From: Nanobdellota archaeon
GTDB lineage: Archaea > Nanobdellota > Nanobdellia > Woesearchaeales > UBA11576
DNA: 58,678 bases
Assembly: GCA_018830225.1 (NCBI GenBank)
Contig: JAHJSS010000067.1
Location: 1 to 58,678, forward strand
Reading direction: 5' to 3'
Position numbers and translations under genes: made by a program
Shown here: in pieces, positions 41,102-43,016 of the stretch
How positions within the stretch are numbered: position 1 is the stretch's first letter
How the letters are laid out: every line of letters begins with the position of its first letter
The notes under the pieces: generated by a model
Database searches by the model: none
Told to the model about the DNA's origin: nothing
The model's input: the letters and a program-made list of their open reading frames with translations, nothing else

Positions 41102-41235
41102 GATGAGAAAGTCCTGCGCCATTTATATAAAAGTTTCTATGCTGCCCTTCGTGCGCCAGGCATTTTAATGCTTTTAAAGGGGTGAGGCAAAGTTTTTTAA
41201 ACCCTCTCAGCATATTGTCGGGACTAGGTGATCGA

Positions 41236-41733
41236 ATGTTCATAAAAGATTTGCAGCCGAGACAGACCAATGTTGATGTCGAAGGCGAAGTTATTGAGAT
41301 GAGTGATGTCCGCGAATTCAGCAAGTTCGGGAGGCAAGGCAAGGTCGCGAACGCGCTGATAAAGGACGGCACTGGCAAGGTAAAGCTTTCTTTGTGGAAC
41401 GAGCAGATAGAGAAGGTGCGTGTAGGTGACAAGGTCAAGATCCAAAAGGGCTATGTCGGTGAGTTCCAGGGCGAGCTCCAGCTGACGACCGGCAAGTTCG
41501 GTACGCTTGACATCGTGAGTGGAGAGGGCGGGCCGCAGGAAGCGGAAGGTCCTGGAGTTGCTGCGAAGCCTGAACCGGCGCCTGCCGAGGAGAAGGCAGA
41601 GCCAAAGGAGGAACCAGCCTCAGCGGATAAGCCTGACGATTTCTCATACGGTGATGAGGAAAAGGACGAGGCGCCGAAGAAAGGGGGCGCTCCTGAGGAT
41701 TCCATTGATGTCGAGGAAGAGGACCTCAGCTGA
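41236..41733 (+). CDS. OB-fold single-strand nucleic-acid-binding protein with acidic tail
   Basis: A 165-residue protein with an N-terminal OB fold of the RPA/hSSB1-like type (about 1-95: V-D-V-E-G-E-V, G-K-V-A-N-A-L-I-K-D, K-V-K-L-S-L-W-N, V-K-I-Q-K-G-Y) and a Pro/Ala/Glu-rich linker ending in an acidic tail (DVEEEDLS). OB fold plus flexible acidic tail is the plan of SSB proteins. It probably covers single-stranded DNA or RNA. The ATG at 41236 follows AGGTGATC; the upstream frame reads through the promoter. It stands before the tRNA gene, transcribed the same way. Confidence 0.85.
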   Translation: MFIKDLQPRQTNVDVEGEVIEMSDVREFSKFGRQGKVANALIKDGTGKVKLSLWNEQIEKVRVGDKVKIQKGYVGEFQGELQLTTGKFGTLDIVSGEGGPQEAEGPGVAAKPEPAPAEEKAEPKEEPASADKPDDFSYGDEEKDEAPKKGGAPEDSIDVEEEDLS

Positions 41734-41827: not shown

Positions 41828-42013
41828 GGGACGGTAGCTCAATCTGGGACCTGCCGAGCTTGCGAGGCTCGCGGCAGTAAAGAGCACACGGCTGAAGGCC
41901 GTTTCATGCCATACGGTATGATGCCCGCAAGGGGATGATTGTCAGATACCGTGGGGTTCGGGGTTCAAATTGCAGAAGCTCCTTGCTGATGCATGGAAGT
42001 CCCCGCCGTCCCA
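41828..42013 (+). tRNA. tRNA-Phe(GAA) with three apparent introns
   Basis: Exon pieces assemble to a standard 74-nt tRNA: acceptor GGGACGG (41828-41834) with CCGTCCC (42006-42012) and discriminator A; D stem GCTC (41837-41840) with GAGC (41882-41885); anticodon stem CACGG (41887-41891) with CCGTG (41949-41953); loop CTGAAG (41892-41897) plus A41948, anticodon GAA; variable loop GGGTT; T stem CGGGG (41959-41963) with CCCCG (42001-42005), T loop TTCAAAT. Inserts: about 32 nt in the D loop (near 41850-41881, forming CTGCCG...CGGCAG), 50 nt at the canonical 37/38 site (41898-41947) and 30 nt at the T-loop/T-stem border (41971-42000). A15-T48 gives an acceptable Levitt pair. CCA is not encoded. 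Confidence 0.85.
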
Positions 42014-42023
42014 TTAAAGAAAG

Positions 42024-42059
42024 GGATTTTGCCGATAAAGTCGGCAAAATCCGTTTTTT
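42024..42059 (+). terminator. Hairpin with T-run downstream of tRNA-Phe
   Basis: GGATTTTGCCGA-TAAAG-TCGGCAAAATCC (42024-42052) is a perfect 12-bp stem followed by G and six T. It looks like an intrinsic terminator for the tRNA transcript. Confidence 0.7.
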
Positions 42060-42066
42060 AATGCTC

Positions 42067-42160
42067 AATAATGCCGATGACTGAAAGGAGTCGGCATTAT
42101 TTTTGTATTAAAGAAAGGCAAAACATCGATGACCGCAGGGAGTCGGGATTATCTTTTCAT
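42067..42160 (+). terminator. Second terminator-like hairpin and a degenerate third copy
   Basis: AATAATGCCGA (42067-42077) pairs with TCGGCATTATT (42091-42101), followed by a T-run. Downstream, CGATGACCGCAGGGAGTCGG (from about 42128) repeats the second copy's CGATGAC...GGAGTCGG with a broken stem. ATTAAAGAAAGG occurs before the first and third copies, so the segment is a tandem repeat. Confidence 0.5.
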
Positions 42161-42186: not shown

Positions 42187-42582
42187 TCACTTATGCTTCT
42201 CGCCCAGCTCCCTTCTCCTCTGGAAGGTCTCTGGTATGTCTATCATGTACTTGCCTTCTGCGAGCTTGAAGACTATGGGCTTGTCCTTGTTGAACAGCTG
42301 CACGAGGTCGAGCTCGAACTTGCCCGGCTCTGTGATGCGTATCGACTCGAGGTCTAGCACCACAGGCTCGTCAGGGTTTGTCTCGCCTATTATCTCGAGG
42401 ACGTCCTCCTCGATCTGCGCCTTCTGCTCTGGTGTGAGACTGGTCGTTATGGTCTTCGCCTTGTCTATGGACTCTTTCTTGACAAAGAACCAGAGCCTTG
42501 ACCCGCACGAGCAGCCCTTCTGCAGGAGCGTTGAATCTCCATCATCATGGAACTTTCCGCATCTGACGCATTGGTGGGGCAT
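42187..42582 (-). CDS. Archaeal Zn-ribbon protein (DUF2072-like)
   Basis: A 131-residue protein starting M-P-H-Q-C-V-R-C-G, with a second pair in C-S-C-G, forming an N-terminal zinc ribbon (residues 5-27), followed by a helical linker and a small C-terminal alpha/beta part. This matches the archaeal Zn-ribbon family usually linked to a DUF2073 protein and an Era-like GTPase, as here. A role in ribosome or RNA biology is commonly inferred from that association but not shown. Last gene of the trio. Confidence 0.8.
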   Translation of the reverse strand: MPHQCVRCGKFHDDGDSTLLQKGCSCGSRLWFFVKKESIDKAKTITTSLTPEQKAQIEEDVLEIIGETNPDEPVVLDLESIRITEPGKFELDLVQLFNKDKPIVFKLAEGKYMIDIPETFQRRRELGEKHK

Positions 42583-42590
42583 GGTGTATC

Positions 42591-43016
42591 TTAACCCTTG
42601 GATTTCTTCTTGGCCTTCTTCGGTCTGGACCTGCCGTCTGTCGTGAACAGCTGTATCTTGTTAGGGTCTTTCTTTATCTCCTTGACTATGGAGGCTGGGC
42701 CTATTATCGTCAGCCCTTGCCTGTCTCCGAGGAGCATGTTGATGAACTGCTGCTTCAGCTTCTTGAACGCTACCATGTTGTGCGCCGCAGGGTATACCAC
42801 CGCCAGCTCGATGCCCCTGAACTCCGCGTTTATCTCTTCCATCGTTGTCTTGATGAGCTCGGTCTCCTCTTCCTTCTTGAGCCGCCCTTCCAGCAGCACT
42901 ATCTTGTCCTCTTTGACTGCGTTGAGCAGCTTCCTGATCCTGCCTATCGAGCTCAGGTTCTCGATTTCCATGTAAGGAATGAATTGTAATGTGAGTCCCA
43001 TTTTCCGAAACCTCAT
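42591..43016 (-). CDS. DUF2073-family protein
   Basis: A 141-residue alpha/beta protein with a basic Lys-rich tail (RPKKAKKKSKG) that suggests RNA contact. It matches the archaeal DUF2073 family in length and position, between Zn-ribbon and GTPase genes. Its ATG overlaps the GTPase TGA (ATGA, 43013-43016), so that start is preferred over the internal ATG at 43001. Predicted cytoplasmic. The exact function is not known. Confidence 0.75.
   Translation of the reverse strand: MRFRKMGLTLQFIPYMEIENLSSIGRIRKLLNAVKEDKIVLLEGRLKKEEETELIKTTMEEINAEFRGIELAVVYPAAHNMVAFKKLKQQFINMLLGDRQGLTIIGPASIVKEIKKDPNKIQLFTTDGRSRPKKAKKKSKG

Follow-up and report, generated by a model that had tools for sequence, protein, structure and literature searches.

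Canonical (37/38) and non-canonical bulge-helix-bulge (BHB) introns occurring together, up to three in a single tRNA gene, are best known from the Thermoproteales such as Pyrobaculum calidifontis, where introns are gained and lost rapidly (PMC8450103, PMC3218864). There are 0.84 introns per tRNA gene in the Thermoproteales against 0.21 in all archaea studied, and P. calidifontis carries 71 introns in 46 tRNA genes (PMC8450103). According to the prevailing view, only (alpha-beta)2 and epsilon2 splicing endonucleases remove relaxed BHB introns efficiently, using the CSL or ASL loops that are held to co-evolve with intron-rich tRNA genes; alpha4 enzymes have two arginines where the broad-specificity types have an arginine and a tryptophan (PMC6379350, PMC12397907). 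A tRNA gene with introns in the D, anticodon and T arms has been described in Cyanidioschyzon merolae (tRNA-Ile(UAU); PMC9602550), where the gene is eukaryotic and nuclear and the enzyme multi-subunit. In archaea, the intron of pre-tRNA-Trp acts as a C/D guide for C34 and U39 (Cm34, Um39; PMC2584109), and a pre-mRNA BHB intron has been published for crenarchaeal cbf5 (PMC2738675).

Within a 58,678-nt stretch of DNA from a Woesearchaeales genome (here called the window), sequence analysis confirmed positions 41828-42013 as the only tRNA-Phe(GAA) gene that could be detected in that genome. All of its parts lie on the forward strand. Exon 1 (41828-41848) supplies the 5′ strands of the acceptor and D stems and the D loop as far as G20, where intron 1 (41849-41880; 32 nt) enters the D loop at 20/21. 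Exon 2 (41881-41897) holds A21, the 3′ strand of the D stem, the 5′ strand of the anticodon stem and CUGAAG with the anticodon GAA, followed by intron 2 (41898-41947; 50 nt) at the canonical 37/38 site. Exon 3 (41948-41969) runs from A38 through the 3′ strand of the anticodon stem, the variable loop and the 5′ strand of the T stem to position 59 of the T loop; intron 3 (41970-41999; 30 nt) then separates 59 from 60, and exon 4 (42000-42013) completes the tRNA with U60, the 3′ strands of the T and acceptor stems and the discriminator A73. Joining the four exons yields GGGACGGTAGCTCAATCTGGGAGAGCACACGGCTGAAGACCGTGGGGTTCGGGGTTCAAATCCCCGCCGTCCCA, the 74-nt tRNA that the original prediction had expected to remain once three inserts were removed, and ARAGORN reads it as tRNA-Phe(gaa) with the acceptor, D, anticodon and T stems all paired. 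Neither ARAGORN nor Rfam returned a tRNA from the unspliced window. The likeness to the C. merolae gene, with its introns in the same three arms, is convergent.

The borders were defined with a purpose-written parser, in which a tRNA-Phe template is threaded through the DNA and jumps are allowed only across BHB-like sites. The locus scored 70.8 with three introns, one canonical and two non-canonical as had been proposed, while 38.9 was the highest score among 300 parses of a control where the first 21 nt were kept and the remainder was dinucleotide-shuffled. Each junction shows 3-nt bulges and a 4-bp central helix, with three of the four pairs formed at intron 1 here and all four in the sister genome. 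At intron 1 the central helix UCUG/CAGU (41843-41846 with 41875-41878) contains a U.U mismatch, and there are two extra bases beside the D stem. At intron 2 the central helix CUGA/UCAG (41892-41895 with 41942-41945) is fully paired, the outer helix being the anticodon stem and the inner helix h′ weak. Intron 3 has a strict motif, in which UUCA/UGGA (41964-41967 with 41994-41997) forms all four pairs, h is the T stem and h′ is UGCA/UGCA. The inserts as originally drawn (41850-41881, 41898-41947 and 41971-42000) leave the same mature RNA, but the first and third would be cut one base off the BHB position; the shift by one that had been allowed for is settled because the BHB motif fixes 41849-41880 and 41970-41999. 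Similarly, the fold CTGCCG...CGGCAG noted for the D-loop insert does exist within intron 1, but the fold relevant to splicing is the pairing of 41843-41846 with 41875-41878. Group I or group II introns are unlikely at 30-50 nt, and Rfam gave no match.

Comparison with close relatives indicates that the splice helices are maintained, because the changes seen in them preserve the BHB pairs. The sister genome G001 has UCUG/CAGA at 20/21 and UUCA/UGAA at 59/60, where the window has the U.U mismatch and a G.U pair, and in G004 the central helix at 20/21 is CCUG/CAGG, with one pair altered on both sides. These observations bear on the idea that the locus is a degenerate pseudogene or an assembly error and that a working tRNA-Phe lies elsewhere. 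The genome is a metagenome-assembled genome (MAG) of 81 contigs and 92.6% completeness, so that a second tRNA-Phe could be missing from it, and the window copy has both the mismatch at 20/21 and a damaged D′ box (see below); yet searches of this MAG found no second tRNA-Phe, such as the separate intact gene that had been named in advance as the observation able to overturn the proposal, the independently assembled G001 has the identical three intron sites, the stems of the spliced tRNA are all intact and the intron changes keep the BHB pairs. We regard a pseudogene or misassembly as very improbable. Instead, we put the probability at roughly 0.94 that this is a functional tRNA-Phe(GAA) gene with three protein-spliced BHB introns, at 20/21, 37/38 and 59/60, a reading that draws on the mature tRNA, the BHB pairings, the conservation of the spliced form through intron gain and loss, the single EndA and the presence of RtcB, all of them visible in the DNA; the splicing itself, like the enzyme assembly and methylation considered below, is inferred from sequence.

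Throughout the family, tRNA-Phe is preceded by an OB-fold nucleic-acid-binding gene (41182-41733, forward strand; Pfam PF01336), whose named relatives are Woesearchaeota MAGs and which serves as the upstream synteny anchor of the locus. Among the family members in which the locus could be read, its intron content is 20/21, 37/38 and 59/60 in the genome under study (G000) and G001; 37/38 and 59/60 in G002; 27/28 and 37/38 in G003; 20/21 and 37/38 in G004; 37/38 alone in G005; and 30/31, 37/38 and 59/60 in G008. G006, G007 and G009 have no introns, and in these three relatives ARAGORN calls an intronless tRNA-Phe(gaa) at the locus. Across the order, in a sample that under-counts D-loop introns because the sampling pattern required an intact D arm, tRNA-Phe is interrupted at 20/21, 27/28, 30/31, 37/38, 44/45, 46/47, 53/54 and 59/60, and nine loci carry three introns. 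Four-intron parses scoring below about 57 were rejected as beam-pruning artefacts at loci whose variable loop is atypical (at L086 and L149, for instance, there is plainly no intron), and an impression by eye of four introns at L107 was replaced by the three that the parser gives.

Several features adjoin the tRNA-Phe genes. At L061, L069, L087 and L177 a partial tRNA-Phe 3′ end, and at L065 a 5′ end, lies next to the gene and resembles the remnant of an integrating element. Downstream of tRNA-Phe in the window (42017-42160) there is a strong hairpin with a T run, together with AT-rich units bearing CGATGA...GTCGG motifs, and motifs like these also lie behind several further tRNA genes in the same genome. 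Genes for OapC and OapB (origin-associated protein) adjoin on the opposite strand (42187-43016).

The interruption of tRNA-Phe is one of many in this genome. Among the type-I tRNAs found by the Rfam tRNA model or represented by the present locus, 20 were parsed and contain 25 introns, 13 of them non-canonical, i.e. away from 37/38, with three introns each in Phe(GAA), Gly(TCC) and Arg(CCT). This amounts to about 1.25 introns per tRNA gene over the 20 type-I tRNAs, a density comparable to that of the Thermoproteales. The original prediction had associated multiple non-canonical introns mostly with that group; they are indeed best known there (PMC8450103, PMC3218864), but here they prove widespread in the Woesearchaeales. 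The tRNA finder used misses the interrupted gene, and MAGs of this kind can therefore seem to lack tRNA-Phe.

The Thermoproteales and the Woesearchaeales differ in their splicing endonuclease, the latter having one alpha-type EndA gene without a CSL loop. Exactly one EndA gene was found in the genome under study (L001:1474-2142, minus strand) and one in each of 38 relatives, and none of these 39 genomes yielded a second subunit or fused units. The same search detected tandem two-subunit EndA loci in several genomes of a family of the same class (f94), and it is therefore able to detect a second subunit. The Woesearchaeal protein aligns over its full length with the alpha4 EndA of M. jannaschii, matches the catalytic subunit of Nanoarchaeum best, and its catalytic positions are occupied by tyrosine, histidine and lysine. 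None of 29 aligned Woesearchaeal EndAs has an insertion of CSL length between YG and LSL, and in the alignment the stretch corresponding to the ASL falls 1-2 residues short of ARMAN-2's own short ASL and has no Tyr-Lys pair. The arginine of NRVAHS and a C-terminal tryptophan are kept in all 29 and align with R275 and W384 of ARMAN-2. The ARMAN-2 epsilon2 enzyme, likewise from an ultra-small archaeal lineage, thus has the same Arg/Trp pair for bulge recognition (PMC12397907, PMC6379350), but the Woesearchaeal EndA has neither the ARMAN-specific loop nor the three-unit fusion. It resembles the self-assembling alpha4 type, and by sequence would thus combine an alpha4-like build with the Arg/Trp pair of the broad types.

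It had been argued that such introns need an endonuclease of relaxed specificity. The central helices of introns 2 and 3 are complete at 4 bp, intron 1 forms three of its four pairs, and the single alpha-type EndA lacks CSL and ASL; some introns nevertheless look relaxed on one side, and the Arg/Trp pair is present, so such a need is only partly supported. A relaxed (alpha-beta)2 enzyme could do the cutting in place of an alpha4 enzyme if a second EndA subunit had gone unseen: among solved relatives the nearest is the catalytic subunit of Nanoarchaeum, and this acts with a second subunit; moreover, a partner gene could have been missed in an assembly that is incomplete. We consider this improbable, given exactly one EndA gene in all 39 genomes, the recovery of tandem loci in f94 by the same search and an L10-type loop (VDDEGDV) in the Woesearchaeal EndA that is absent from Nanoarchaeum alpha. 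Under the alpha4 reading, the single EndA would assemble as a homotetramer and cut each BHB, with the D, anticodon and T stems as the outer helices, and RtcB would then join the tRNA-Phe exons.

Several families share a conserved 3′ part of the 37/38 intron. When 288 genomes of the order were searched with a covariance model of it, 59 gave matches; apart from one locus outside tRNA genes (see below), the matches inspected were 37/38 introns of tRNA-Phe, tRNA-Leu(UAG) and tRNA-Cys(GCA). Each copy consists of 7-8 nt able to pair with the final bases of the intron plus the 3′ exon, followed by AUGA or CUGA, a 3-bp hairpin and NAUGA. In the window (forward strand), the putative guide element occupies 41913-41920 of intron 2; it is complementary to the end of intron 2 and the 3′ exon, and its fifth base from D′ pairs with tRNA position 39. 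Alignment places a putative D′ box remnant, ATG, at 41921-41923, one A short of the AUGA or CUGA present in 39 of 48 family members, and a putative C′ box, GAUGA, at 41934-41938; between the two, covariation supports a 3-bp hairpin spacer, CCC-GCAA-GGG, at 41924-41933. Over 49 sequences the guide helix is 99.5% paired and the spacer hairpin 98.0%. Covariation in the guide helix is 0.550 against 0.165 after shuffling, and one of its pairs changes on both sides (A-U in 24 sequences, G-C in 24, C-G in 1). An alternative K-turn reading of the core (CAGA with UGAUG) was discarded, its helix being just 73.5% paired over the 49 sequences; the AGA that closes the intron pairs with C32 and U33 as part of the BHB, which accounts for it.

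In 48 of 48 aligned introns, from three tRNA species, the fifth base upstream of the D′-like box faces tRNA position 39. A mean of 6.38 of 7 pairs forms in this register and at most 3.33 in any other, a test that is biased because the 48 introns came from a model containing the guide helix; position 39 was assigned from tRNA anatomy. The tRNA-Trp intron of the same genome has a guide (UUGGAGCG), AUGA, a hairpin and GAUGA in the same order, and when its pairing is read by hand the fifth guide base lies opposite C34. As in the pre-tRNA-Trp guide, the putative guide element is intron-borne, sits upstream of a D′-type box, pairs with part of the intron as well as with its host tRNA, and would have 39 as a target (PMC2584109). 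It differs from that system in its hosts (tRNA-Phe, -Leu(UAG) and -Cys), in having one short guide and a hairpin spacer, and in that inspection of the introns recognised no C and D boxes with a terminal stem.

The 37/38 intron thus probably descends from a guide intron, and its D′/C′ element would in the family at large direct 2′-O-methylation at position 39 of its own tRNA. The methylation would precede splicing, like that directed by the tRNA-Trp intron at 34 and 39. For the window copy our confidence in a guide function is lower: with its D′ box one A short and no C/D box recognised, this copy may no longer guide, and it may be decaying. The same core could instead be a splicing-control fold with no guide role, which would mask the 3′ splice site and compete against formation of the anticodon stem. 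The guide helix does span the 3′ splice site, it cannot form together with the anticodon stem, and only D′-like and C′-like boxes are visible where clear C and D boxes are absent; but the guide rule is matched by the D′/C′ consensus, by the spacer hairpin and by a spacing from position 39 that stays constant in tRNA-Phe, -Leu and -Cys, and the tRNA-Trp intron of this genome also fits that rule with C34. We therefore think a purely splicing-related role unlikely and favour the guide reading. At one locus seen in two genomes of one genus (L268 and L270; G105:C32 and G027:C7), an AUGA-hairpin-GAUGA core occurs outside any tRNA in a short conserved RNA-like stretch and is possibly a free-standing C/D sRNA.

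The genome encodes RtcB, and the rtcB gene is itself interrupted. A 32-nt insert (L200:1438-1469, on G000:C79) has a strict BHB exactly at the junction, and its removal restores MPDAHIGYGLPMG. BHB inserts of 29-33 nt lie in the same rtcB motif, the MPDxH..GYG site, in five more genomes from other families (L231, L232, L233, L234 and L235). In two of these, L233 and L235, rtcB has a second insert (31 and 12 nt) ahead of INCGM or GFDINCG; in G002, of the same genus as the genome under study, rtcB is uninterrupted (L236). In the part of the literature that we covered we found no published BHB intron in rtcB; compared with the cbf5 intron (PMC2738675), the intron here sits in the splicing ligase itself.

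Other features of the rtcB loci were also observed. Just upstream of the interrupted rtcB of L200 there is an ORF (231-1195) that by eye resembles a LAGLIDADG homing endonuclease and adjoins a stray MPDFHVG fragment of an RtcB motif, and L234 has a similar LAGLIDADG-like ORF ahead of its interrupted rtcB. In six genomes (G085, G086, G111, G093, G035 and G066) rtcB is divided by long in-frame insertions, with open frames of up to about 1000 aa, which are probably inteins. Three assemblies of the family gave no rtcB match (G001, G003 and G007), one of them 93% complete.

The interrupted tRNA-Phe gene itself varies a known type; it stands in an order that is rich in introns but has a single EndA without loops, in which guide-like introns occur in three more tRNAs and the ligase gene rtcB can itself be interrupted. 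We tentatively propose, at slightly worse than even odds, that the whole order splices its interrupted tRNAs and its rtcB mRNA with a single alpha4-type EndA that carries the Arg/Trp pair and no loops, and that introns in tRNA-Phe, -Leu and -Cys guide methylation of position 39 in their own tRNAs. Being intron-rich with one loop-less EndA gene, the Woesearchaeales seem to break the correlation between endonuclease loops and introns, and this orthologous locus, with intron numbers that range from zero to three, offers a natural series for the study of intron gain, loss and recognition. If the guide reading is true, intron-encoded self-methylation is not peculiar to tRNA-Trp; and should the rtcB introns prove real, the ligase mRNA would depend for its maturation on the ligase itself, a possible feedback loop.
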